A DNA stretch of 64,000 bases from a virus: positions 40,300 through 104,299 of IMG/VR virus record IMGVR_UViG_3300024999_001520; one strand, given 5' to 3'. A model generated the notes under the pieces. That model made no database searches. It saw only the letters and a program-made list of their open reading frames with translations, and was not told where the DNA came from. A program made the translations under genes and the position numbers. Of this stretch, positions 36,536-60,900 are shown piece after piece (position 1 is the first letter of the stretch; every line of letters begins with the position of its first letter).

Positions 36536-37277
36536 TCATTACAAAATATTAGGTGTTTCTAATGGAGCGACTACGGATGAAATTAAAAAAGCCTACCGTA
36601 AATTAGCTAAGTTACATCATCCTGATAAGAATCAAAATGACCCCACAGCAGAGGAAAATTTTAAGCGTATAAACGAAGCTTATGAGATTTTATCAGATGA
36701 AAATAAACGACGTAATTACGACAATTCCCTTAATGGATATACTAATGCTTTTGATATGCTGTTTAGAAACGCACGTCCTCAGCCAGACAGGCCTACACAA
36801 GGGCAAGATTTAAGATATGTCGTTGATATACCCTTGTATGCTTTTATATTAGGAGCGGAAAGATCCATACAAGTATCCTACCCTGATCCTTGCCCTGCGT
36901 GTAATGGTACAGGGGCCGCTAGTTTTGCTACATGTACTCCTTGTAATGGGGCTGGGCGTTTAACTAAAATACAAGAAGCTCAAGGTATGAGAATGCATTC
37001 AACTACTACATGTAATCACTGCCGTGGTAAAGGTAGAATTATTAAAGATCAATGTGTAACTTGTGATGGCCTTGGTATGACGATGGTGGATAATGTTGAT
37101 ATCCCTTTTGTTGTACCACCCGGCGCCAAAGATAAAGATATTGTAAAATTATATGGGCAAGGACCAAAAGGCACTTTTGGAGGGCCTGCTGGCAATATCT
37201 TTATTCAGCTGCGGATGAAACTGCCAAGCAAAGAAACGCTGACGGCAGAACAAGAGGAGGTTCTTAGATCTATATGA
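36528..37277 (+). CDS. DnaJ-like co-chaperone, short form
   Basis: This 249-residue protein starts at GTG inside the previous gene, after GGGAGG. A clear J domain has the HPD triplet at residues 31-33. A short linker follows, then all four zinc motifs [24 protein letters not shown] and CVTCDGLG. The C-terminal substrate domain is cut short after one beta-domain ([25 protein letters not shown]), so the dimerisation part of full-length DnaJ (about 375) is absent. It should recruit the host DnaK, perhaps to remodel replication complexes as known for phage lambda. The domain call is confident. Confidence 0.9.
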
Positions 37278-37813
37278 ATATACTAAGCTTGGATGTTTCC
37301 GCCGCCTCCACTGGTTGGTGTGTATTGCAGGACACAGGTATATATTTTGGGGTCATAAAAACAAACGCTAAATTGCAAAATACAGAAAGATTGTTGACAT
37401 TTAAAACAGAATTGTGTAAAATATTAAAAACGTATAAACCTACAAACATAGTTATTGAAGACATATTTGTAGGACTTAATGCTTCTACTATAAAAGTGCT
37501 TGCTGAATTTGCCGGTGTTGCTAAACTTACATGTAAAGAGGTGGTTAATATAGTACCATACATAATAAGTACCAATACGGTAAAAGCCTACTATAAAGCT
37601 AAAAAGAAAGAAATGATTTTTAATTTTATGCTGGATATTTTAGAACAGCATTGGGAATATAAACACTATAATGACATAGTAGATGCCTTAGCACAAGTCA
37701 TATGCTATACTGATATAGTACTTAATCTTAAAGCATTTAGATTTACGGAAGAGTATGGTTATTTTTATAAAATTGAAGATCCTCTTCACAATCATTTAAT
37801 TCGGGGTGTATAA
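37274..37813 (+). CDS. RuvC-like Holliday junction resolvase
   Basis: This 179-residue protein overlaps the DnaJ-like gene by 4 bases. It has the RNase H-fold resolvase pattern: first strand [16 protein letters not shown] with Asp7, then [11 protein letters not shown] with Glu62, and a late acidic motif [10 protein letters not shown]. These match the catalytic Asp/Glu set of RuvC. The length fits RuvC (about 170). It would cut branched recombination or replication intermediates before packaging, alongside RecA and the Cas4-like nuclease. The family call is firm; dimerisation and sequence preference are untested. Confidence 0.8.
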
Positions 37814-38973
37814 TGGTAAATAATGAGGGCATTAAAATAAGTGCTACACGCATAAGTACTTTTTTGCAATGTAAGCAGAAATACTGGTTTAACTATTATG
37901 ATAAATTACCTAAAATAGATAATCCGGTATTTAAATTAGGTACAGCTGTTCACATTGCCTTGGAGTTGGCTGGAAATATCTGGCGGGAAAAAGAGAAGTT
38001 CACTAAAAAAGATAAAGAAACTATTATTAATAAGTTTAAAGAAGTCTCTGTAAAAGAAGGAATTGATGATTTTTCCGTACACCAAACAGGTATAGAATTA
38101 GTAACTAATAGAATAAATGATTTTATACATGAAGGGCACAAAATAATAAGCTTAGAAACTCCCTTTGGTTATAAAGGTGGTGTAGATGTAATCACCAAAG
38201 AAGGTGTGCCGTTGTTGGGCGCTATTGATAAAGTATTACAGGTAGATGAAGACACCATTCTAATTGTGGACTATAAAACATCTAAAACTGCACCTACACC
38301 GGATCAACTAAAAACAGACAAACAGTTGTCTATGTATGATTTGGTAGCCAGTATATTGTGGCCTGGAAAGCGTATTATAGTTAGCCTTGACTTGTTAAAA
38401 CATGAGATGTTATATTCTTATCGTACACCAGAAGAACGGGCTGCTTTTTCTGAATATCTTAGATTAGTGTACGATTCCATGCTTTCCTTGAAAGAGCAGG
38501 ATGTAAAAGCCACAATAAACACATTTTGTCCTTGGTGTGATTTTAGAGAATATTGTAATGCGTATAAAGAGGCATATACAAATTCGAACGGCAAATTTCA
38601 AGAAGCGTATCGTTTAGATAACAGTGCTTTGGTCGATGAGTGGCAACAAGTTAAAAAGATGAAAAAAATATATGAAATGCGCGAGAAAGAACTATCTTTA
38701 CTTCTTATGGATCGTATAAAAACTACTGGTATAAATGTACAAGTAGACGACAAAGAAGTTTATGTTAGACAAAATAGTAGAGCAACTTACGATATTAGCG
38801 CGGTTAAACAAATAGTACCACAAGAGTATCTATTGAATATGGTATCTTTAAATAAATCAGACATTGAAAAATATATGGATAAGAATCCCGCAGCCAAGGC
38901 TAAAATAGTAGATAGCATGACTGTGAATTTTACAACACCTTTTTTAGATGTACGTAAAATAAAAAATAAATGA
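37813..38973 (+). CDS. Cas4/RecB-family PD-(D/E)XK nuclease with Fe-S cluster
   Basis: This 386-residue protein overlaps the resolvase stop by one base. Features: ISTFLQCKQKYWF with a lone Cys20, then the histidine helix LGTAVHIALE, the PD-(D/E)XK core GAIDKV ... ILIVDYKTS, and the QLSMYDLV helix. Three late cysteines (239, 242 and 248, in CPWCDFREYC) together with Cys20 form a 4Fe-4S signature as in Cas4 and AddB. The product is a single-strand or end-processing exonuclease, probably for recombination. No Cas1 or Cas2 gene or repeats occur in this window, so a CRISPR role is unlikely. Confidence 0.85.
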   Translation: MVNNEGIKISATRISTFLQCKQKYWFNYYDKLPKIDNPVFKLGTAVHIALELAGNIWREKEKFTKKDKETIINKFKEVSVKEGIDDFSVHQTGIELVTNRINDFIHEGHKIISLETPFGYKGGVDVITKEGVPLLGAIDKVLQVDEDTILIVDYKTSKTAPTPDQLKTDKQLSMYDLVASILWPGKRIIVSLDLLKHEMLYSYRTPEERAAFSEYLRLVYDSMLSLKEQDVKATINTFCPWCDFREYCNAYKEAYTNSNGKFQEAYRLDNSALVDEWQQVKKMKKIYEMREKELSLLLMDRIKTTGINVQVDDKEVYVRQNSRATYDISAVKQIVPQEYLLNMVSLNKSDIEKYMDKNPAAKAKIVDSMTVNFTTPFLDVRKIKNK

Positions 38974-39321
38974 AAAGACATACAATTGACTTTATAAAAG
39001 CACAGTTTGAAAAGTATGGTTACACACTTATTGATGACATTTATATAAACGCAAGCACTAAATTGTGGTGCCTGGAAAGATAAGATTTATAAAGAATCGA
39101 TAAAATATAGAGATAATAACGTTTGTAGAAATCCTTACTGTTTTGGTATAACTAAGGAGTTAACTATCCATCATATAAATTATGACAAGGAGGATTGCAG
39201 ACCTATTAATTTAATAACTCTATGTAGAAGTTGTAATTCTCGTGCTAATACTGATAGAATTTGGCACGAGAACTGGTATTCAATTTTAATGCGTAATCGT
39301 GGAAGATTACTAAACAATTAA
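38970..39321 (+). pseudogene. Frameshifted HNH endonuclease next to the intron
   Basis: The ATG at 38970 overlaps the nuclease stop and opens a frame beginning MKRHTIDFIKAQFEKYG. This matches the usual N-terminal repeat of phage HNH proteins but stops at TAA about 38 codons on. From 39067 a frame shifted by one base gives the HNH part: NVCRNPYCFG, LTIHHINYDK and LCRSCNSRAN, ending at 39321. The zinc cysteines and the His-His-Asn core are intact, so the active domain could still be made if internally started, but the whole gene is broken. It may be the degenerate homing endonuclease of the intron 57 bases downstream. Confidence 0.75.
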
Positions 39322-39330
39322 GGAGTTTCT

Positions 39331-40881
39331 ATGGGAAAAAAGATTAAAATTTTATGTTATATGGACACCCCCTCCTGTAAATAATGTGCAGCTTTACATA
39401 GCAATATGTACCGAATAACTACGAGAATTCAGGGGAACTCCTAACGTCAAGTCGAGGACAATCCTGAGCCAAGCCTCTTTATAGAGGAAGGTGCAACGAC
39501 TATTCCATATAAGGAAGTACACCCAAGCGGGTGGAAGCACGTAGCATCCCAAGTGGATGATGATATAGTCTCAACTTGCATGGAAACATGCAGCAGCCCA
39601 AGAAGCGGTATAAGAAGTAGCGTTCTTATATGAAGATATTTGGCAACAGGTTTTGCAACAGTCAGCCGTAATGTTTTAGAAGCGTTGTATAAAACGGGTA
39701 GATATGACATCGAAGTGTTGGGTATAAATTACTGGGGAGATCCACATGATTTTCCATATAAGATTTGGCCGGTAGGTAATAATGCGGAAAGAGATCCCTA
39801 CGGTCGTAAAAAGATAGTTAATATGATTCCTAAAATGGATTTTGATATTCTATTTTTTATGCAGGACAGTTTTATTTTGGATTTTTTACCTGAGTTGATT
39901 CCACATCTTAAAAAGAATAGGGAGACGCCGTTTAAATCCGTGGTGTATTTTCCCATTGATGGTACACCTAAGCCAGAGTGGATAAAAAATGTTAGTTTCT
40001 GTGATGAAGTAATTACTTTCGCTAACTTTGGTAGAAAGCTATGTCAGGAAACATACCCAATTGTGGGTGATATGTCTGTAATTCCTCATGGGGTTAATAT
40101 CAATGAATACAAACCATTACCTAAGGATGAAGTAGCTGATTTTAGAAAACGTTACTTTGGTCGTCATGCTGATAAATTTATTTACATGAACCTAAATAGA
40201 AATCAGCAACGTAAGGATATTCCTAGGACTATCCAAGCATTCCATGAGTTACGTAAAAAAGAACCAAATACTTTATTATATCTGCATATGGCTAAACAAG
40301 ATCAGGGATGGAATCTGCCAGAAGTATGTAGAGCGTATGATTTTAGTTTAACCGATGACGTCATATTTCCTCAAAATTTTGGGCCTAATCAAGGCTATCC
40401 GAGAGAAATAGTTAATATGCTGTATAACTGTGTTGATTGCGTTGTTAGCGCAAGTCTTGGTGAAGGGTGGGGGCTTTCATGGATAGAAGCAATGGCCGCT
40501 AAAACACCCGTTATTATGCCCAGAAACACAGCAATGATAGAAAATATTACTGAGGATGTGGGCTACCTTGTAAAAAGCGGTACTAACCCCAGTCTATGGA
40601 CAGTACTTCCTTATGACAACGAAGTAAGACGCCCATTAGTTGATGTAGAAGATCTAATCGACAAGATGCTACATGTGTATAATAATTATGAAGAGGCCAT
40701 GACTAAGGCCGAGCAGGCGTATAAATTTGTTACAGGTACCCTAGATTGGCAAACAGCAGTTGGTAATACTTGGGTTAAAACTTTTGACGCTGTATCTAAA
40801 TCAATGCTTGAACAAAAAAGTAAAGTGGCAGAAATGTTAGCAACACAGACCACCAACGTCATAAACTCAGAAACTTTTTAA
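39331..40881 (+). CDS. GT4-type glycosyltransferase, split by a group I intron
   Basis: Exon 1 (39331-39378) starts after AAGGAG and encodes 16 residues ending MDTPSC. Exon 2 is 39643-40881. Joined, they give a 428-residue GT-B enzyme with ATGFATVSRNVLEAL completing the N-terminal glycine loop. Later motifs are VIPHGVNINEYKP, then SLGEGWGLSWIEAMA, the donor-site E-x(7)-E pattern of GT4 enzymes. Without splicing only an 18-residue peptide is made, because TAA follows at 39382. An apparent TTG start at 39640 would lack the glycine loop and has no ribosome site. It probably transfers a sugar to a phage or host glycan. Confidence 0.88.
39379..39642 (+). ncRNA. ORF-less group I intron (264 nt)
   Basis: The intron lies inside the glycosyltransferase gene. 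Signature pieces are seen in order: CAATCCTGAGCCAAGCC (P/Q region, about 39459-39475), GTGCAACGACTATTCC (R) and GATGATATAGTCT (S). GACTA (39498-39502) and TAGTC (39566-39570) form P7. A P9-type hairpin, TATAAGAA (39609-39616) with TTCTTATA (39623-39630), lies near the end. The upstream exon ends in T and the intron in G (39642), as required. CTCCTG (39372-39377) can pair with CAGGGG (39430-39435) as a possible P1. Exact P1/P10 pairing needs modelling. The protein is restored exactly on removal. Confidence 0.88.
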
Positions 40882-43040: not shown

Positions 43041-44159
43041 ATGACAATTAAAGGTATAAAATATATAGGGCCAATTCTAGACAATTCAGGTTATGCAAAA
43101 GCCTGTCGTGGTAATATTCTGGCACTCCATTCACTTGGTGTACCTATAACGTTAGATCCAATTTCTTTTGAAAAGTCAAAACCAGACTTAGGTGCTGATG
43201 GGGTTCTTTTAACAAAGTTAATGGATGCTAAGGTGGACTACGATACAGTAATTATACACACGACACCTGAATTCTGGTCTAGATACAGAGAAAAAGACAA
43301 GAAAAATGTTGGTTACACTATATGGGAAACAGATCTATTGCATCCAGACTGGAAGAGCTACATTAATAGTACTGTTGATAAAGTTTTAGTTGGTTGTGAA
43401 TGGAACAAAGAGGTGTTTAAACACAGTGGTGTTACAATCCCTATTGGTGTAGTGCCTCATTGTATGGATTTAAGTCATGTAGCCACATCTACTCCTTTTG
43501 ATGTAAAAGGAGTATCCAAAGATACCTATATGTTTTATGCTATATTTCAATGGACTGAAAGAAAACATCCGACAGCATTAATAAAGGCATACTGGCATGC
43601 GTTTCAGAATAATGAAGATGTGGCTCTTGTATTAAAAACTTATCGTAGTGATTACAGCGAGGAAGAAAAAGATGCCATAAGAATTACCATAAGAAAACTA
43701 AAAGCTATTACTCCTATGGACAAATATCCACCCATTTATTTATTACCAGACATGCTAACAGAAGATGAAGTTAATGGATTACATAAAAGAGGTGATTGTT
43801 ACGCCTCATTAGACCGCGGTGAGGGTTTTGGTATTGGGCCTTTTATGGCCGGAGCTTTTGGTAATCCCATAGTAGTTACAGGGTTTGGCGGCGTGACAGA
43901 ATATGCCAAACAAGATAATAGCTATTTAGTAAATTACACACTAACACCCGTTTATGGTATGCCATGGAGTCCATGGTATAGAGGTGATCAACTTTGGGCA
44001 GAGCCTGATGTGAAAAATGGCGCTGACTTAATGAAGTTTGTTTATGACAATAAAGAGGCCGCCAAAACAACAGGGCAAAGATTAAAGCAGTATATAAATA
44101 CTAATTTTTCTTTAACCACCATTGGTACAAAATTACTTAAAGAACTTGAATTAAAATAA
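43041..44159 (+). CDS. GT-B fold glycosyltransferase (GT4-like)
   Basis: This 372-residue protein starts after ATAAGGTTT. It opens with a GT-B N-domain (KYIGPILDNSGYAKACRGN), has VPHCMDLSHV and FAIFQWTERKHP-type segments, and the C-domain donor motif DRGEGFGIGPFMAGAFGNP then GGVTEYA. This parallels the split enzyme at 39331, though the two are clearly different proteins. It probably uses a nucleotide sugar. It is the first gene of an eleven-gene cassette with gaps of no more than 12 bases and several overlaps. Confidence 0.82.
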   Translation: MTIKGIKYIGPILDNSGYAKACRGNILALHSLGVPITLDPISFEKSKPDLGADGVLLTKLMDAKVDYDTVIIHTTPEFWSRYREKDKKNVGYTIWETDLLHPDWKSYINSTVDKVLVGCEWNKEVFKHSGVTIPIGVVPHCMDLSHVATSTPFDVKGVSKDTYMFYAIFQWTERKHPTALIKAYWHAFQNNEDVALVLKTYRSDYSEEEKDAIRITIRKLKAITPMDKYPPIYLLPDMLTEDEVNGLHKRGDCYASLDRGEGFGIGPFMAGAFGNPIVVTGFGGVTEYAKQDNSYLVNYTLTPVYGMPWSPWYRGDQLWAEPDVKNGADLMKFVYDNKEAAKTTGQRLKQYINTNFSLTTIGTKLLKELELK

Positions 44160-44165
44160 TATATT

Positions 44166-44648
44166 ATGACTAAAAAAACTTTAAACATTGGTTGTGGCAA
44201 CCGCATATATAAAGAATATCCCAAAGGGTATACGTGTGTAAACTTAGATATACGCCCCTTAGAAGGTGTTGATATAGTAGGTAATGTTGAGGCAGTAGAC
44301 CTGCCCAATGAGCAGTTTGATTATATACTTGCGAGCGATATAATAGAACATTTCCCAATAAGCAAAACTATTGGTCTACTTAAAGAATGGGCCAGATTAT
44401 TAAAGCATGGCGGTGTAATGGAAATTCGTACACCAAATATGCAATGGGCTGTGGAATATTATAGACAAACAGGTGATGCTAAGTTTGTTTCTTACCATAT
44501 GTTTGGTGGACAAGATTACCCAGGTAACTTTCACTTTGTTATGTTTGATGTCAAATGGCTATCTAATTTATGTATAGCTGCTAATTTAATACCTTCAAAT
44601 CATAGCTTTGAAGGATCTAATTTTATATTGGAAGTATATAAAAAATGA
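44166..44648 (+). CDS. SAM-dependent methyltransferase
   Basis: This 160-residue protein starts 6 bases after the previous stop. Motif I is LNIGCGNRIYKEYPKGY, followed by VNLDIRP (motif II acidic residue), FDYILASDIIEHF (motif IV) and LLKHGGVMEIRTPN. It resembles the short class I methyltransferases of sugar and O-antigen clusters. It probably methylates a sugar hydroxyl or a glycan intermediate, given its glycosyltransferase neighbours. At 160 residues it is short but has a complete Rossmann core. Confidence 0.82.
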   Translation: MTKKTLNIGCGNRIYKEYPKGYTCVNLDIRPLEGVDIVGNVEAVDLPNEQFDYILASDIIEHFPISKTIGLLKEWARLLKHGGVMEIRTPNMQWAVEYYRQTGDAKFVSYHMFGGQDYPGNFHFVMFDVKWLSNLCIAANLIPSNHSFEGSNFILEVYKK

Positions 44649-44657
44649 GGTAAGTAG

Positions 44658-45548
44658 ATGAATGGGTGTATATTAAGGGCTGTATATAATAGACCAGAGA
44701 TGCTTTATCTGTCTATGGAGTATGAAATAAAAGCACGTAAGCAACTAAGTACAGACAATTATAGTACTTTATTTGCATTAGAACACAACGCTGATCCTAA
44801 ATGTGTTGAGCTAATTCAAGATTATTATCCTTTTGAAAAAACAGTTGTTACAAGATCATTTAGGCATTTTGGTTGGGGTAATATTTTAGAAGGGTTTAAG
44901 CAGGCTTTTTTTGAAGGCGCAGATTATGTATTAAACATAGAAGATGATTGTTTGCTGCATGAAACTTACTTTACATATATGAATACAGCATTAAACTTAT
45001 TAAAGGGTAATAAATTTTCTGTTATTAATGCTAGTCGTAGATTAGTGCCTAATACAAGTATAACTGGTGTGCAAGCTACAAACCTATTTGAAGCGCCGGC
45101 CTGTTTAATGAACGGATATTTTTTTAATAAGTATGTAAGGCCTTATGCCACATATGATTATTATACTAATAGAGAGACCATCATCCATTTGGTTAATAAA
45201 CGCAATGGGGATGACAAAAGATCTAAATACAGGGCGGAGCGTAAAAATTTATTTCAGCATATTGGTTGGGACGGTCTTGTTAATAGACTAATAGATACTG
45301 CTTTTATTGAAGAAGGTTTAAGATCTTATTCTCCTATGTGCGACAGACAAATACACATAGGATTTTATGGTCAAAACAGGATTGGTAAACTACCTTTTAA
45401 GCACCCGGAGTTCGCAGATCGTGTCGAGGCTTTGAGAGATACTGCATTAAACGCAGCCAAAATGATGCAATTAGATCCTAACTATAAAGATTATGTAGAT
45501 TTTGCATCGCAATTAGACGCTTGGTCTGGGGAACTTACCTTAATATAA
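44658..45548 (+). CDS. GT-A fold glycosyltransferase-like protein
   Basis: This 296-residue protein starts after TGAGGTAAG. The N-terminus (GCILRAVYNRPEMLYLSMEY) matches nucleotide-binding starts of GT-A enzymes, and ADYVLNIEDDCLLHE carries a likely metal-binding EDD (DxD-type) motif. The C-terminal half contains RKNLFQHIGWDGLVNRLI and CDRQIHIGFYG. It probably transfers a sugar from a nucleotide donor. Family placement is less certain than for the two GT-B enzymes. Confidence 0.72.
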   Translation: MNGCILRAVYNRPEMLYLSMEYEIKARKQLSTDNYSTLFALEHNADPKCVELIQDYYPFEKTVVTRSFRHFGWGNILEGFKQAFFEGADYVLNIEDDCLLHETYFTYMNTALNLLKGNKFSVINASRRLVPNTSITGVQATNLFEAPACLMNGYFFNKYVRPYATYDYYTNRETIIHLVNKRNGDDKRSKYRAERKNLFQHIGWDGLVNRLIDTAFIEEGLRSYSPMCDRQIHIGFYGQNRIGKLPFKHPEFADRVEALRDTALNAAKMMQLDPNYKDYVDFASQLDAWSGELTLI

Positions 45549-45560
45549 GGAGTAATTTAA

Positions 45561-46334
45561 TTGAAAACAATAGAACAAACAAGTAATCATTTAGACACAT
45601 TGATAAATGGGGGTTCCCCATTTTACTTTGTAAGGTTTGGTGATGGAGATTTAACTCTTATACAAGGAGCACCTAATGAACAAAGGCATAGAAATAGTGT
45701 TAAACTACGACAGGAATTAAGGGAAGCTTTACAAATATTCGATCTAAATTATGTAGTAGCTAGTACTGCCGGTTCCTTTGAAGATGGGAGCGGTAGTTAT
45801 TTTTGGATAAAAAATAGAGTACAGCAGCAAATTCTGGATGGGCAGCTTAGACATATTTGGAAGTTACTACGAGGTAACCCAGACGAAGGTTATCATGCGT
45901 TAATATTTCAATATGCTTTTGAACATAAATTAGAGTGGTTTGTAAAATTTATTGATACTATGTTCTATGATAAAAAAGTATTATTGGTAGCCGGCGAACC
46001 TTTGTGTAATAGTAACCTTATAGAAAAGATGTTTAATATTAAACACACAGTATCTTTTACAGGGGTGGACAATGCTTATTATGCCTTAGATCGTAAAATG
46101 GAAGAAATACTTGACAAACTACAAACTTGTGATATAATTCTTCCTGTAATAGGTATGGCTACACGTGTATTAGCCAAACGCTTATGGAAAGATCATAATA
46201 TAAGAAACAAAAGTTTAATTGATATAGGTGTTACTATGGACGCTTTGGCTGAGGCCCCACATAGAGGTTGGACCCAACGTGTAATAAATGAAGGGGTCAT
46301 AGAAAAATACAAAAAATACTATGAGGTGCTTTAA
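45561..46334 (+). CDS. DUF1792/GT-D type glycosyltransferase
   Basis: This 257-residue protein uses a TTG start after AAGGAG. The N-terminus PFYFVRFGDGDLTLIQG matches the RFGDGE signature of DUF1792 (GT-D) enzymes, with Asp for Glu in the D-x-E metal site. The downstream ASTAGSFEDGSG, KVLLVAGEPLCNSN and ILPVIGMATRVLAKRLW segments also fit. The known member dGT1 adds glucose to serine-rich adhesins in streptococci, which fits the Ser/Thr-rich surface proteins of this phage; that link is inference. It overlaps the next gene by one base. Confidence 0.75.
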   Translation: MKTIEQTSNHLDTLINGGSPFYFVRFGDGDLTLIQGAPNEQRHRNSVKLRQELREALQIFDLNYVVASTAGSFEDGSGSYFWIKNRVQQQILDGQLRHIWKLLRGNPDEGYHALIFQYAFEHKLEWFVKFIDTMFYDKKVLLVAGEPLCNSNLIEKMFNIKHTVSFTGVDNAYYALDRKMEEILDKLQTCDIILPVIGMATRVLAKRLWKDHNIRNKSLIDIGVTMDALAEAPHRGWTQRVINEGVIEKYKKYYEVL

Positions 46335-46978
46335 TGAAACAACTTATTTTTGGTCTTGGTACAGGTAGATGCGGTACTGTATCTCTTAAAGAATTGTTAG
46401 GTCTGCAGAACGACTTTACTTCAACTCATGAGTTAGTAATAACTCCATGGCAGTTTAGCAAAGGACACATAGATAAAACCATTGCGTATATGCAAAATAG
46501 GCCCTGGGGCTTTTCGTCATGTGATGTATCTTTTTGGCATTTACCTTATGTTATATACATATTGGATAAATTCCCAAACTCAAAATTTATTTGTCTTAAA
46601 CGAACTAAAAAAGACACTGTTGCTAGCTATATTAAAAAGACCGCTGCTAACACTAAAACAGGGCTAAAAGAACGAAACCATTGGACAGCTAGGGATAGTA
46701 TTTATTGGGACAGTAACTTGTGGCGCCTTGATCCAATTTATGATAATTGTTATCCAAAATATAATCTACCAAAAATAGATGCAATAGAACAATATTGGGA
46801 CGACTATTATAATTTAGCAGCAGAATATGCTGCAGCGTTTAAAGACAATTTTATGTTATTTAATACGGAAGAAGTATTGAATGATGAAACCACACAATCT
46901 AAGTTATTAACTTTTTTAAATATACCTTTGTCCAATAGAGTTATTAATACCCAAATAAATGAAAATAAAGGAGCATAA
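46334..46978 (+). CDS. Sulfotransferase-like protein (1)
   Basis: This 214-residue protein begins with a P-loop-like 5'-phosphosulfate motif, LIFGLGTGRCGTVSLKELL (residues about 5-23). A 3'-phosphate motif follows as FICLKRTKKDTVASYIKK, with the Arg and Ser positions of PAPS-binding sulfotransferases. The length fits short phage and bacterial members. It would move sulfate from PAPS to a glycan hydroxyl; the nucleotide-kinase fold is shared, so another group transfer is possible. It starts at the stop of the GT-D gene, in the same cassette. Confidence 0.72.
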   Translation: MKQLIFGLGTGRCGTVSLKELLGLQNDFTSTHELVITPWQFSKGHIDKTIAYMQNRPWGFSSCDVSFWHLPYVIYILDKFPNSKFICLKRTKKDTVASYIKKTAANTKTGLKERNHWTARDSIYWDSNLWRLDPIYDNCYPKYNLPKIDAIEQYWDDYYNLAAEYAAAFKDNFMLFNTEEVLNDETTQSKLLTFLNIPLSNRVINTQINENKGA

Positions 46979-46979
46979 C

Positions 46980-47510
46980 ATGCCAACATCGAGACCCTAC
47001 CCCATAGCACACATAGCTTCCAGAATCATCGACTTACAACCAAAAACCGTATTAGACATAGGGATTGGGTTTGGAAAATATGGTTTCTTAGCCAGAGAAT
47101 ACACAGATATTTGGAACAATCGTTTTAGAAAACCTGAGACTGTTATACATGGCATAGAAGTATATGAAGAGTACATCACTGAAATACATAGACAAATATA
47201 CAATAAAATTTTTATTGGCAATGCACTTGATATATTACCTACATTAGGTAACTATGATTTAATTACTTTTTGCGATGTTGTAGAGCATTTTGAAAAAGAA
47301 GATGGCATTAAAATGATGAATCTGGTCCGGGATAAATGTAAGAATGCCTTTATAACTACCCCTACTTTAAATAGATTTCAAAAACGTGGTGGTGTTGCGG
47401 GTAACCCTTATGAACAACATGTTTATGGTTGGAGTACAGAAGATTTGAAGGCTTGGGGTAAAGTAACCACATTTAATAATTTTGTTAATCTATTGGAGAT
47501 TGTAAAATGA
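46980..47510 (+). CDS. SAM-dependent methyltransferase
   Basis: The ATG at 46980 follows AAAGGAGC, one base after the previous stop; the upstream in-frame ATG at 46959 is inside the preceding gene and is rejected. The 176-residue product has motif I TVLDIGIGFGKYGFLARE, acidic GIEVYEEY and motif IV YDLITFCDVVEHFEKEDG, then NAFITTPT. It is a class I methyltransferase whose partner is probably a glycan precursor. It overlaps the next methyltransferase by 4 bases, so two methylations may be coupled. Confidence 0.82.
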   Translation: MPTSRPYPIAHIASRIIDLQPKTVLDIGIGFGKYGFLAREYTDIWNNRFRKPETVIHGIEVYEEYITEIHRQIYNKIFIGNALDILPTLGNYDLITFCDVVEHFEKEDGIKMMNLVRDKCKNAFITTPTLNRFQKRGGVAGNPYEQHVYGWSTEDLKAWGKVTTFNNFVNLLEIVK

Positions 47511-48118
47511 ACGCAAATAAAAAAATAGCTACGGCATTGTGGAAAGATAATTGCAAGATTAATTTACCTTGCGGTATTGGATCTGCAGTTAGTGTTACTA
47601 CTAAAATTAGGGAATTTATCGGAGACCAACTAAAAAATTATAATATTAGAAGCATTAGTGACGCCGGTTGTGGGGATTTTGCTTGGATGAACTTAGTAGA
47701 TTTAGGTACTGCTACATATGTAGGTTACGATATAAACAAAGAAATGTTAGATGTCAATAAAACAAAATATCCTAAGGTTTCTTTTATTGAATTTGATTTA
47801 GTTAATCAGCCATTACCTAGGACTGATTTAATTATTTGTAGAGATTGTTTATTTCATTTACCTGATGCTTCTGTAATTAAAGCTTTAAAATTATTTAAAG
47901 CCAGTGGTTCACCTTATTTAATGACCACCTCATATAGAAATGTGATCAGCAATACACCGACATCCTCTGAAAAATTTACGAGCAAGCGATCACTATACAC
48001 ATCTGAATATGGGTTTAGAGAAATTAATTTAGAAAAAGATCCATTTAATTTATCAGCTCCACTAACTTTTATTGAAGAGTCCGGGTTTAAACGGATTTTT
48101 GGTTTATGGAGGCTTTAA
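47507..48118 (+). CDS. SAM-dependent methyltransferase
   Basis: This 203-residue protein has motif I SISDAGCGDFAWMNLVDL, TYVGYDINKEMLDVNK, and motif IV DLIICRDCLFHLPDASV followed by a class I C-terminal sheet (PYLMTTSYRN). It lies in an unbroken series: it overlaps the preceding methyltransferase, and the next gene starts right at its stop. It is probably an O-methyltransferase of the same glycan; the target is not determined. Confidence 0.8.
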   Translation: MNANKKIATALWKDNCKINLPCGIGSAVSVTTKIREFIGDQLKNYNIRSISDAGCGDFAWMNLVDLGTATYVGYDINKEMLDVNKTKYPKVSFIEFDLVNQPLPRTDLIICRDCLFHLPDASVIKALKLFKASGSPYLMTTSYRNVISNTPTSSEKFTSKRSLYTSEYGFREINLEKDPFNLSAPLTFIEESGFKRIFGLWRL

Positions 48119-48856
48119 ATGCAAATTCCTATTACTGTTTGGACTTATTGGGAAAACCCCGCCGGCTTAAAAACACCATCATACTTAGAATTATGTTTTG
48201 ATTCTATGGATAAATATTGTAATACAGATAACTTTGTATTTAAACTTGTAGATAACTTAAATATACACGACTTAATACCTGAATTAAGAACAGATTTAAA
48301 TAAATTAAAAGTGTCCAATAATCCCAGAGAGAACATTAGTATTAAAGCGGATTATATTAGAGCTAAACTTTTACAAAAGTATGGCGGTATATGGCTCGAT
48401 GCTGATACAATTGTTATGCGTTCTCCCGATGAACTTGTACCTTTATTAAATAGAAAAGATTTTTTATATAGAACCCAGCATGAAGGCCTTGCATCAGTAG
48501 GTGTAATGGCAAGCATACCTAACGGTGTATTAATCAATGAGTATATAGAACAACAAGATACACTTATCGATACTAAAAAAACATTAAGTTGGGGGGAAAA
48601 TGGCTCACGTATACTCACACCATTGGTGCGTAAACATTCTGCCATAACCCAATCACTTGGATTAGTTGGTTCTATACCTTTTTCACATTGGCAACAATAC
48701 TTTACTAATGTTCTGTATGAGCACGATAAAACGGTTTGGTGTTACCAGCTGTATAATAAAGTATTTCCAGAATGGTTTAAACAGCAAAATAAGGAAATTA
48801 TTTTAAAAGATACCACGGTGATATCGCAGCTTTTTAGGATTTCTTTGGGGGTTTAA
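48119..48856 (+). CDS. GT32-like glycosyltransferase (capsular-polysaccharide type)
   Basis: This 245-residue protein starts at the base after the previous stop. It has the GT32/Caps_synth layout: IPITVWTYWENPAG near the N-terminus, then ADYIRAKLLQKYGGIWLDADTIVMRS with the DxD metal motif, and a late SHWQQYF segment. These enzymes add hexoses to growing polysaccharide or glycolipid. The domain call is strong; donor and acceptor are unknown. Confidence 0.85.
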   Translation: MQIPITVWTYWENPAGLKTPSYLELCFDSMDKYCNTDNFVFKLVDNLNIHDLIPELRTDLNKLKVSNNPRENISIKADYIRAKLLQKYGGIWLDADTIVMRSPDELVPLLNRKDFLYRTQHEGLASVGVMASIPNGVLINEYIEQQDTLIDTKKTLSWGENGSRILTPLVRKHSAITQSLGLVGSIPFSHWQQYFTNVLYEHDKTVWCYQLYNKVFPEWFKQQNKEIILKDTTVISQLFRISLGV

Positions 48857-48857
48857 T

Positions 48858-50027
48858 ATGAATAACACAGTTTTACTTTTAGGGTGCGATGGTTACATTG
48901 GCAATGCTTTAACACAACGTTTGTTAAATAAGGGATTTAAAGTAATTGGTGTAGATAACTTTTTACGAAGATATTGGATACAAGATCTAATGACCTCTAA
49001 GTCTGCTACACCTGTTTTACCCATGGTAGAAAAGATTAGTAAATTTAGTGTTTTGGGAGATTTTATATTTTATGCTATTGACTTATTACAAGATAGTAAC
49101 AAAGTAGAGGAACTGTTTGTTACGTATAAACCAGACACTATCATTAATTTGGCACACATACCCTCTGCCCCATTCAGTCAGATCTCACAAGAGAAGGCTG
49201 AATTTACTTTGAGGAATAATATAATACCTACAAATAATTTGTTGTGGTATATGAAGGCACATACACCAGATGCGCATTATATTACCATAGGAACAACAGG
49301 TGAATATGATCATTATAGTAATATAGATATCGAAGAGGGTTACATTAAGATTAATCATAAGGGCAGGATGTCCAATGAAATGATTTACCCTAGAAGGCCG
49401 GGATCATTATATCATTGTTCAAAAACCGCTTCTACTTATATAATAGATTTTTTAACGCGCACTTGGGGGTTGAGATGCACCGACGTACAACAGTCTGTTG
49501 TTTTCGGATCGTATACGGATGAAATAGATAAAACTAAGGTATATAGTAGACTTGATAGCGACGAAGCAGGAGGCACTGTCATTAATCGCTTTATTGTACA
49601 AACACTGTTAGGTATCCCAATGACTGTTTATGGAGAGGGGCTACACCAAAGAGGGTTTATATCATTAAATGATAGTGTGCAGGCATTAGAGATAGCTGTA
49701 AACAATCCACCAGCGGCGGGCAAAGTACAGGTATGGAATCAGTTATCTGAGTGGCATTCAATAATTGATATAACTAAATTTGTAGAAGAAGTAGCTACTA
49801 AATTAGGGATACCCAGCTCTACACAGCATATCCCTTCTCCAAGAAATGAGTATACAGGAGAACATTACTACAACTATGTTGTTGACATTTTACCTAGTTT
49901 AGGTTATACTCCTACAAGAAGTATAAAACAAGAGATAGAATATACAATGGTCACTATTAAAGACATAGTACCAAAAGAGTTGAAATCAGTTGTTATGCCA
50001 AAGATATTATGGGAGCATAAAAAATGA
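48858..50027 (+). CDS. UDP-sulfoquinovose synthase-like epimerase/dehydratase (SQD1/SqdB)
   Basis: This 389-residue extended SDR enzyme starts 1 base after the GT32 gene. It has the NAD motif GCDGYIG (residues 9-15) and VDNFLRRYW, then NLAHIPSAPFSQ, IGTTGEYDHYSNIDIEEGY, KINHKGRM, a PGSLYHCSK catalytic site (Tyr185 and Lys189) and WGLRCTDVQQSVVFGSYTDE. This is the block order of SQD1/SqdB, which makes UDP-sulfoquinovose from UDP-glucose and sulfite, and the length fits. It may therefore supply a sulfonated sugar. The substrate is inferred; a near relative acting on another UDP-sugar is possible. It overlaps the next gene by 4 bases. Confidence 0.82.
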   Translation: MNNTVLLLGCDGYIGNALTQRLLNKGFKVIGVDNFLRRYWIQDLMTSKSATPVLPMVEKISKFSVLGDFIFYAIDLLQDSNKVEELFVTYKPDTIINLAHIPSAPFSQISQEKAEFTLRNNIIPTNNLLWYMKAHTPDAHYITIGTTGEYDHYSNIDIEEGYIKINHKGRMSNEMIYPRRPGSLYHCSKTASTYIIDFLTRTWGLRCTDVQQSVVFGSYTDEIDKTKVYSRLDSDEAGGTVINRFIVQTLLGIPMTVYGEGLHQRGFISLNDSVQALEIAVNNPPAAGKVQVWNQLSEWHSIIDITKFVEEVATKLGIPSSTQHIPSPRNEYTGEHYYNYVVDILPSLGYTPTRSIKQEIEYTMVTIKDIVPKELKSVVMPKILWEHKK

Positions 50028-50683
50028 GTAAGAACATAAATAGAGTTTTTTGTCATAGAAAATCAGGCGCCTCTTATGTTGTTAGAAGTATAATGGCTAA
50101 TTACTATTGTAATGATTTCGACAAAAATCACTGGCATTTTTCAGATAGTATGGTGAAAGCTATTGCGGATAGTGACATAGCTCTATATGTTGTAAGGGAT
50201 GGCAGAGACGTGTTATATGATTGCTATGAATATTGGAAGCAACAACCTGGCACAAAAAAACATTTCGAAGGTAAAACTTTTAGACAGTACATTATGGGAT
50301 ATATAGAGGCTTATAGTGATAAGGATTTATTTGAAAAAACTGCTGAAACTAAAAATCCCCTAGATCCAAGAATGTTTTCGGACCCAGTACAGTACTGGGT
50401 AGATCATGTGCAAGGGTTTATTAATAGTAACTTAGAAAAGATGTACTTTGTTAACTACGATATGATGCTTATTGATGGCGCTGCTATGTTAATGCACATT
50501 GGAGATTACTTTAAATTAGAACCAAGAAATAAACTCATAGAGCCTTTGGAAGATCTAACTTTGTATAAACCATTGTTTAAAGATGTGGGTGTGTGGCGTT
50601 TAGTTTTTGGTCAAAAAGACTTAGAGTATTTCTGGGGCCGCGCAGAAGATACAATGATTAAATTAAAGTTTTCTTATAATTAA
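50024..50683 (+). CDS. Sulfotransferase-like protein (2)
   Basis: This 219-residue protein overlaps the SQD1-like gene by 4 bases. A 5'-phosphosulfate loop, VFCHRKSGASYVVRSIM, is followed by a classic 3'-phosphate motif, LYVVRDGRDVLYDCYEYW. The C-terminus (DVGVWRLVFGQKDLEYFWG ... MIKLKFSY) fits the end of sulfotransferase family 1, where a GxWxxxF segment binds the nucleotide. It probably moves sulfate from PAPS to a sugar. It is distinct from the protein at 46334. Confidence 0.78.
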   Translation: MSKNINRVFCHRKSGASYVVRSIMANYYCNDFDKNHWHFSDSMVKAIADSDIALYVVRDGRDVLYDCYEYWKQQPGTKKHFEGKTFRQYIMGYIEAYSDKDLFEKTAETKNPLDPRMFSDPVQYWVDHVQGFINSNLEKMYFVNYDMMLIDGAAMLMHIGDYFKLEPRNKLIEPLEDLTLYKPLFKDVGVWRLVFGQKDLEYFWGRAEDTMIKLKFSYN

Positions 50684-50694
50684 TAGGATTAGAT

Positions 50695-51195
50695 ATGATT
50701 AACATAGATGAATACTTAGTTAAATTGAAAGTTATAGTGAGTGAGGTCGATGGTGTAATAACGGACGGGTTAATCACTTATGATGAACTTGGTAATGTAC
50801 CATTTAAATCATTCAATATGCAAGATTTAGATATTGTAAATGAGTTAAAGAAAACCTTTAAATTTACTTTTTTAGCCAAAGATCAGTATGTAAATTACAA
50901 CTTATTCAGACGCAAGAATATTCCTTTTTACTGGGCAGAAAAAGAAAAAGTGGAATTTGTTACTAAGATACTACATCGTTATGAAGTAACATTAGATGAA
51001 ATACTTTATATTGGTTTTGGGTATAGTGACGTACCATGCATTAATAGAATACCTTTTTCTATGTGTCCAAGTAATGCTAATAAAGAGGTTAAAAACAAAG
51101 TAGCCGTTTGCTTGAATACTTCTTCTGGCGATGGTGTTTTATATGAAGTTTATGAATTACTTAAAAACGAAATTGACCGGAGACGTCTATGTTAA
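50695..51195 (+). CDS. KdsC-like HAD protein with altered active site
   Basis: This 166-residue protein matches KdsC/NeuA-type C0 HAD phosphatases in length and in the pattern VDGVITDGLITYDELGNVPFKSFN. The usual nucleophile Asp (DxDG) is Glu17 here (SEVDG), and the late GDxxND motif is GFGYSDVPC. Both key acidic sites are changed, so it may be catalytically dead or have another activity. Its place in the glycan cassette still fits a role in nucleotide-sugar or keto-sugar metabolism. It overlaps dnaX by 7 bases. Confidence 0.72.
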   Translation: MINIDEYLVKLKVIVSEVDGVITDGLITYDELGNVPFKSFNMQDLDIVNELKKTFKFTFLAKDQYVNYNLFRRKNIPFYWAEKEKVEFVTKILHRYEVTLDEILYIGFGYSDVPCINRIPFSMCPSNANKEVKNKVAVCLNTSSGDGVLYEVYELLKNEIDRRRLC

Positions 51196-60594: not shown

Positions 60595-60900
60595 ATGGTA
60601 AAGAAACCGCATAAAAAGGCTAAAAAAATAGTTAAACCTGGAAAAGTTATTAAACAACTAAAAAATGTTGACAGGCTTTCAAAAGAAGAGTATCATAAAG
60701 CCCTTAAACATCCTAAGTGGCAGAAGAAACGTTTAAAGGTTTTTCAAAGAGATAACTGGCGTTGTACAAGATGTAAGGACCCTGAAACAGAACTGCATGT
60801 ACATCATTTACAGTACACTAAAAGGTATCCTTGGAATGAACCTATGGCTAATTTGACTACATTGTGTGGTAATTGTCATAAAAAAACACACAACAAATAA
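60595..60900 (+). CDS. HNH endonuclease
   Basis: This 101-residue protein starts 18 bases after the previous stop. A lysine-rich N-terminus is followed by KHPKWQKKRLKVFQRDNWRC, CTRCKD, ELHVHHLQY and TLCGNCHKKTH: the complete treble-clef HNH motif with zinc cysteines and the His-His-Asn-type core. It probably nicks or cuts DNA. Unlike the other two HNH genes it appears intact. It might be a free-standing homing nuclease or a phage function such as packaging support; there is no terminase nearby to favour the latter. Confidence 0.85.
   Translation: MVKKPHKKAKKIVKPGKVIKQLKNVDRLSKEEYHKALKHPKWQKKRLKVFQRDNWRCTRCKDPETELHVHHLQYTKRYPWNEPMANLTTLCGNCHKKTHNK

Follow-up and report, generated by a model that had tools for sequence, protein, structure and literature searches.

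Positions 39379-39642 of the window, the 64,000-nt stretch of viral DNA analysed here, are a group I intron that interrupts a glycosyltransferase (GT) gene between codons 16 and 17 of its GT4-type product. Across the window and related loci, the site was found in several states: empty, with an adjacent HNH endonuclease gene alone, with the HNH gene and the intron, and with the intron next to a broken HNH gene.

Identity, boundaries and fold of the intron

The group I intron family of Rfam (RF00028) matched 39369-39593 on the plus strand with 83 bits (E = 1.3e-19; gathering score 50), in an alignment that spans the full model (1-253). This covariance-model search had been proposed in an earlier sequence-only reading, which called a small ORF-less group I intron in a phage GT gene; the match above the gathering score, the in-frame junction and copies in two related loci (L002 and L003) bear that call out. 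At gathering level no other Rfam match occurred in the window, and the 104,299-base record containing it held no second RF00028 match (E up to 0.001).

Excision of 39379-39642 brings TGT (codon 16) to GCA (codon 17) in frame, generating an open GT of 428 aa whose junction reads TPSC+ATGF, so that the N-terminus expected upon removal of 264 nt is indeed restored. Without splicing, the GT frame ends at the second codon of the intron, and no ORF was found inside the intron, which contains stops in all three forward frames. The mechanical ORF list begins the GT at TTG 39640, i.e., at the intron end; the first exon of such an intron-split gene is easily missed by ORF listing. In P1, read by hand, the exon's final T (39378) lies opposite G39388, forming a U.G pair at the 5' splice site, and in P10, also read by hand and comprising three pairs only, the GCA of exon 2 lies opposite UGU 39385-39387. 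Both intron ends of the sequence-only reading, an exon ending in T (39378) and an intron ending in G (39642), therefore agree with these pairings.

The P3-P9 core, including the P7 guanosine site and the P3/P7 pseudoknot, is present as drawn by hand and is kept in L003, and the P7 pairing (GACTA with TAGTC) and P9-type hairpin noticed earlier could be located within it (Table 1). Extra P7.1/P7.2 stems between P7 and P3, which we take to be the mark of subgroup IA, were found at 39503-39533 (the P7.1 loop in L003 is GAAA), and by this stem rule, as distinct from a subgroup-specific model, the intron is IA-like. The minimum-energy fold was only modestly better than expected (z = -2.56; 3/200 shuffles equally good) and was set aside as evidence, being pseudoknot-free and hence leaving P3 and P7 undrawn. 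From family membership and the kept structure, we infer that the intron probably self-splices in a GTP-dependent manner.

Table 1. Features of the GT locus (window positions, unless a related locus is named).
Feature	Position	Strand	Basis or remark
PD-(D/E)XK (RecB-type) nuclease gene	37813-38973	+	PF12705, 91.3 bits
Relic of free-standing HNH endonuclease gene	38970-39321	+	Frame-broken; ~340 nt shorter than in L003
GT exon 1, codons 1-16, MGKKIKILCYMDTPSC	39331-39378	+	In-frame junction; intronless relatives align gapless there
Group I intron	39379-39642	+	RF00028 match; 264 nt, ORF-less, P7.1/P7.2 present, last base G
P1: exon CUGU 39375-39378 with GCAG 39388-39391	39375-39391	+	Read from sequence; same pairs in L003
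P10: UGU 39385-39387 with exon-2 GCA 39643-39645	39385-39645	+	Read from sequence; identical in L003
P2 hairpin	39395-39410	+	One U-A to C-G double change in L003
P3: 39419-39423, 39425 with 39540-39544, 39538	39419-39544	+	RF00028 match; pairs kept in L003
P4-P5-P6-P6a domain	39429-39491	+	RF00028 match; pairs kept in L003
P7, guanosine-site helix: GACUA 39498-39502 with UAGUC 39566-39570	39498-39570	+	RF00028 match; kept in L003
P7.1 and P7.2 hairpins	39503-39533	+	C-G to U-A double change in P7.2 of L003
P8	39545-39559	+	Two double-changed pairs in L003
P9 hairpin, GAAA loop	39576-39593	+	RF00028 match; pairs kept in L003
3'-terminal 8-bp hairpin, named P9.2 here	39609-39630	+	Pairs kept in L003
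GT exon 2, codon 17 onward	39643-40881	+	Whole protein matches Glycos_transf_1 and phrog_2170
Intein (LAGLIDADG) in GT	L009:3001-5493		Pfam
Intein (LAGLIDADG) in GT	L010:3001-5412		Pfam
Intein (LAGLIDADG) in GT	L081:3001-5331		Pfam
Intein (LAGLIDADG) in GT	L083:3001-5487		Pfam
Intein (LAGLIDADG) in GT	L088:3001-5418		Pfam

Copies and empty sites in related loci

Two GT-protein searches (the second represented by the best 80 of 170 relatives) yielded 82 related loci, 71 of them non-redundant after near-copy removal; in the phage collection, the GT relatives comprised 20 records, all below 60% identity. The intron is absent from 80 of the 82 loci, in which the GT match starts at residues 1-8 and passes through the site. 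For 78 of these 80 the site sequence could be read directly; in L060 and L061 the pattern script detected no site. Rfam matches at gathering level, sought in 11 of the 82 loci (L002-L012), were seen in L002 and L003 alone. The sequence of L005 across the site, TGTGCAACAGG, matches the spliced window junction at all 11 letters. None of the 11 GTs in our alignment (A1) departs from A17, T18, G19 and F20, and the nine intronless ones among them retain the N-terminal strand and loop; the earlier placement of the site at conserved N-terminal codons, which fits homing, is thus upheld.

L002 and L003 carry the intron at the identical site. L002 is nearly the same virus as that of the window (99.85% identical over 7,548 nt), and L003, which comes from a 234-kb contig, is ~85% identical to the window. 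The intron itself is 90.2% identical between the window and L003 (BLAST), as compared with 83.3% for exon 1, 84.1% and 84.2% for two parts of exon 2, and 78.7% (36981-37812) up to 86.6% (the HNH relic) for other segments nearby. Of 412 GT codons, 35, 21 and 142 differ at the first, second and third position, respectively. All 69 drawn pairs (P1-P10 and the 3' hairpin) are standard in both sequences, in a drawing made with both in view, and four of them are double-changed (one in P2, one in P7.2 and two in P8). At least four double changes were rarely obtained when the 24 substitutions were scattered randomly across the 262 intron columns of a MAFFT alignment (P = 0.0007), or when the ten paired-column substitutions were randomised within paired columns (P = 0.00003). 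Sliding the partners by 1-3 columns left no double changes and 32-47% paired cells; a shuffle control, weak with two sequences, gave values as high in 29/500 cases. Pair conservation and double changes together support selection on the RNA fold.

The E-value, the exact absence in intronless relatives and the compensatory changes relative to L003 make a chance match unlikely, and an artefact or chance fold was ruled out by the RF00028 score, the L002 and L003 copies, the 69/69 kept pairs and the double changes. A recent transfer of the intron between the window and L003 lineages is neither supported nor needed, as a functional RNA inherited from a common ancestor fits the spread of identities. 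Two exact-pattern scans of viral_contigs, which diverged copies would escape, returned the L002 and L003 records only. The known carriers (the window record, L002 and L003) form one lineage, so that shared ancestry may by itself account for the association of the intron with the HNH gene.

HNH genes, other inserts and inteins at the locus

The RecB-type gene and the GT gene adjoin directly in relatives without an insert. Between them, the window carries a broken HNH gene, which had gone unremarked in the sequence-only reading together with the intact HNH genes of relatives and the inteins in the same GT gene. The relic comprises a 37-codon 5' piece starting at ATG 38970 and a catalytic piece in a different frame, with a stop at 39046 and its first start codon at 39289, past the HNH motif. 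L002 shows the same broken state, making an assembly error less likely; this check is not fully independent, since the two records are 99.85% identical and may share a sample.

At the same place in L003, beside the intron and 57 nt from it, lies a full-length, free-standing ORF of 229 aa. Its matches include a CapR-type domain (26.5 vs 24.2 bits), and its C-terminal region is HNH-like, with Pfam HNH_3 below cut-off (18.7 vs 24.8); PHROGs 681 and 559 (endonuclease and HNH endonuclease) match both this ORF and the window remnant. The endonuclease gene adjoining the intron-bearing GT is thus full length in L003 and a relic in the window and L002. Intact HNH-type ORFs upstream of the GT occur in 9/71 non-redundant loci, namely L003 and eight loci without the intron, whose proteins are 45.7-58.0% identical to that of L003; L002 holds a remnant. 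Among the seven of nine intact proteins covered by the Pfam scan (all but L045 and L049), PF01844 passes its cut-off only in L005 (25.9 vs 21.4); HNH matches lie below cut-off in L003, L043, L046, L047 and L057, as in the window remnant, and L054 has no Pfam HNH match. Every one of the nine intact proteins, which range from 229 to 809 aa, shares the conserved HH, NLIT and C..CN residues with the window remnant. The longest, encoded just upstream of the GT at L043:522-2948, contains many CapR/zinc-ribbon-like repeats. Elsewhere in the window, a 101-aa ORF at 60595-60900 has an HNH-like motif in its translation and is a separate candidate endonuclease.

Five more loci (L008, L022, L032, L078 and L087) have other large inserts at this position. 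The insert of L008 has an HNH match at its cut-off, and the remaining four are putatively nuclease-type, a label that their Pfam matches (CapR, DUF4379, Mom and a sub-threshold REase_MTES_1575) leave unproven. In three of them (L022:1365-2963, L032:1363-2958 and L078:1301-2983) the encoded proteins of 532-561 aa combine CapR repeats with Mom-like matches, one of the three above cut-off, and they may be additional mobile genes of the free-standing kind.

A quick maximum-likelihood tree was built for 71 GTs, and the program flagged L087 and L063 as long branches. On it, the HNH label, assigned to 10 rows including the relic, requires 8 changes, at least 6 of them forced by starred branches. Shuffled labels required 9.5 changes on average, and 38/500 shuffles were as low as the observed 8. 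The number of changes being near the shuffled mean, HNH genes are scattered almost at random on the GT tree; their distribution at this locus is patchy, as for mobile genes. The sister loci L057 (with HNH) and L011 (without) are collinear on both sides of a clean insert, and their identity profile dips at the intron site, a dip that is not unique.

The codon for Cys16, the last before the intron, is changed in 5/13 intronless non-redundant loci with a large insert vs 4/54 without one (Fisher, P = 0.011) in a post hoc comparison that takes no account of relatedness and counts some inserts whose nature is unproven; for HNH loci alone the count is 3/8 (P = 0.040). L060 and L061 (site missing) and L002 and L003 (intron present) were left out, and L023, which has a 464-nt gap with an ORF that looks zinc-ribbon-like by eye, was counted as insert-free. 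These changes in insert-bearing loci are suggestive of an HNH target near the intron site. In five of the eight intronless loci with an HNH gene the Cys16 codon is unchanged, which leaves them with no obvious protection at that point.

In another five loci (L009, L010, L081, L083 and L088), the GT frame is broken at the motif GEG[WF]G[LF], between residues 294 and 295 in window GT numbering, by an intein (Table 1). All five inserts match Intein_splicing and LAGLIDADG_3 above the Pfam cut-off, are stop-free, begin with Cys and end in VHN before a Ser. Inteins occur in 5/66 non-redundant loci whose DNA reaches past residue 294, and on the GT tree the intein label (5 rows) requires 5 changes, at least 4 of them forced. 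With the intron at the first glycine-rich loop and the intein at the second, both such loops of the GT host self-splicing elements in different phages.

Downstream in the window, a second GT-like gene lies at 43041-44159 (Pfam matches below cut-off), followed by ORFs whose translations resemble methyltransferase, glycosyl- and sugar-nucleotide genes; the region 43041-51195 suggests a sugar-modification pathway in this phage.

Proposed collaborative homing and its alternatives

We consider it probable, though well short of certain, that the element is a self-splicing IA-like intron which the adjacent HNH enzyme helped to spread by collaborative homing, the HNH gene having since decayed in the window. 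The GT transcript would fold such that P7 holds an exogenous guanosine for attack after U39378, at the U.G pair of P1, and the freed exon would then attack after G39642 to produce the 428-aa GT. The free-standing HNH enzyme, encoded between the RecB-type gene and the GT, would cleave GT genes that lack the intron, at codons 16/17 or close by; break repair would copy the HNH gene and the intron together, and the intron, by disrupting the cut site, would shield its carrier. We infer both this order of events and HNH cleavage at the intron site from comparison of the loci. As the HNH gene of the window is decayed, its intron is probably immobile unless another phage supplies the enzyme.

A similar arrangement in the cyanophage S-PM2, psbA/F-CphI, is described as collaborative homing in the available parts of PMC6083498 and PMC3984707: the free-standing F-CphI cuts intronless alleles, and the psbA intron prevents self-cleavage. 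That system, as presented in the portion of PMC6083498 at hand, likewise pairs a phage group I intron with an adjacent free-standing endonuclease gene, intronless alleles being present in relatives. It differs in its host gene, psbA as opposed to a GT, in that the endonuclease gene is broken in our window, and in the putative enzyme, which is here HNH-type with CapR-like zinc-ribbon repeats, in place of the Endo VII motif described for F-CphI. In the terminase intron of ICP1, paired with a T5orf172 homing endonuclease gene (HEG), the HEG also lies beside the upstream exon and outside the intron; the host gene and endonuclease family are others, and both relic and intact endonuclease states are seen at our locus (PMC10448857, available text). 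The same text proposes HEG turnover as the origin of such layouts.

The HEG turnover put forward there as an alternative lends weight to the most serious competing account, in which ours is an ordinary group I intron that later lost its own endonuclease and the HNH enzyme cuts elsewhere, e.g., in the RecB-type gene or at an intergenic site. HNH genes do occur in eight non-redundant intronless loci and so are independent of the intron. However, L003, the sole locus in which both are intact, has them 57 nt apart, a changed intron site is commoner in insert-bearing loci (a weak point), and the intron bears no trace of an ORF, although a clean loss would leave none; we regard this account as a real but rather doubtful contender. 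For ORF-less group I introns, reverse splicing has been proposed as a means of movement, and insertion into GT mRNA followed by reverse transcription would need no endonuclease. It leaves unexplained why an HNH gene adjoins the intron and recurs at that position in relatives, and the two exact-pattern scans put close copies in this lineage only, so that we give it hardly any credence, the least of all the accounts weighed here.

Scarcely better placed, and very improbable, is a dead intron, which would leave the GT gene off or yield a 413-aa GT lacking the N-terminal strand from the TTG at 39640, the start given in the mechanical ORF list. Against it, all 69 pairs are kept, with compensatory changes, while 142/412 third positions differ; exon 1 lies in frame, with AAGGAG ahead of its ATG in the window as in L003; and the N-terminal strand and loop persist in the nine intronless GTs of A1.

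Group I introns are well known in phages: 2,513 are reported from huge phages in the available text of a preprint (PMC12363816). The Bastillevirinae introns, several of which were shown to splice in vitro or in vivo, lie in DNA polymerase, terminase, ribonucleotide reductase and thymidylate synthase genes and average 802 nt, and most split phage genes belong to the nucleotide and DNA metabolism category (PMC11878797, accessible portion). The earlier impression that a GT is an unusual host fits this literature, yet helicase, lysis, capsid and tail genes (PMC3706429, in part) and psbA (PMC6083498, in part) carry introns too, so that psbA, capsid and tail genes already lie outside DNA metabolism. 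Introns similar by blastn occur in Staphylococcus, Aeromonas and Alteromonas phages (best matches 71-76% identical across some 180-205 nt); the Aeromonas match lies under a 'putative terminase large subunit', as opposed to a GT. In 60 of 406 phage records taken in even steps, no GT annotation underlay the match, many being unannotated there and the host gene possibly adjoining. A limited search of open-access literature, parts of papers included, found no report of a group I intron in a phage GT gene, and within that search the GT is a new host gene.

The intron itself is of a known type, and the interest lies in a locus at which stages of homing appear side by side. We tentatively entertain, while leaning somewhat against it, the broader view that the locus is a hot spot displaying successive stages of collaborative homing, the second glycine-rich loop being targeted independently by the LAGLIDADG intein. 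If true, the free-standing endonuclease would have come first, and its cut site would then have drawn in the intron. Of the published explanations for the pairing of an ORF-less intron with a separate endonuclease, collaborative homing on a shared site (PMC3984707) and HEG turnover (PMC10448857), as set out in the available parts of both papers, predict different orders of events; the separate states found in one gene of related phages make the order of arrival testable. These elements add a phage sugar-transfer gene to the hosts of group I introns and inteins, which in the literature portions consulted are genes for DNA metabolism, lysis, structure and photosynthesis. They also show that genetic parasites of several kinds have repeatedly targeted the GT gene of related phages.
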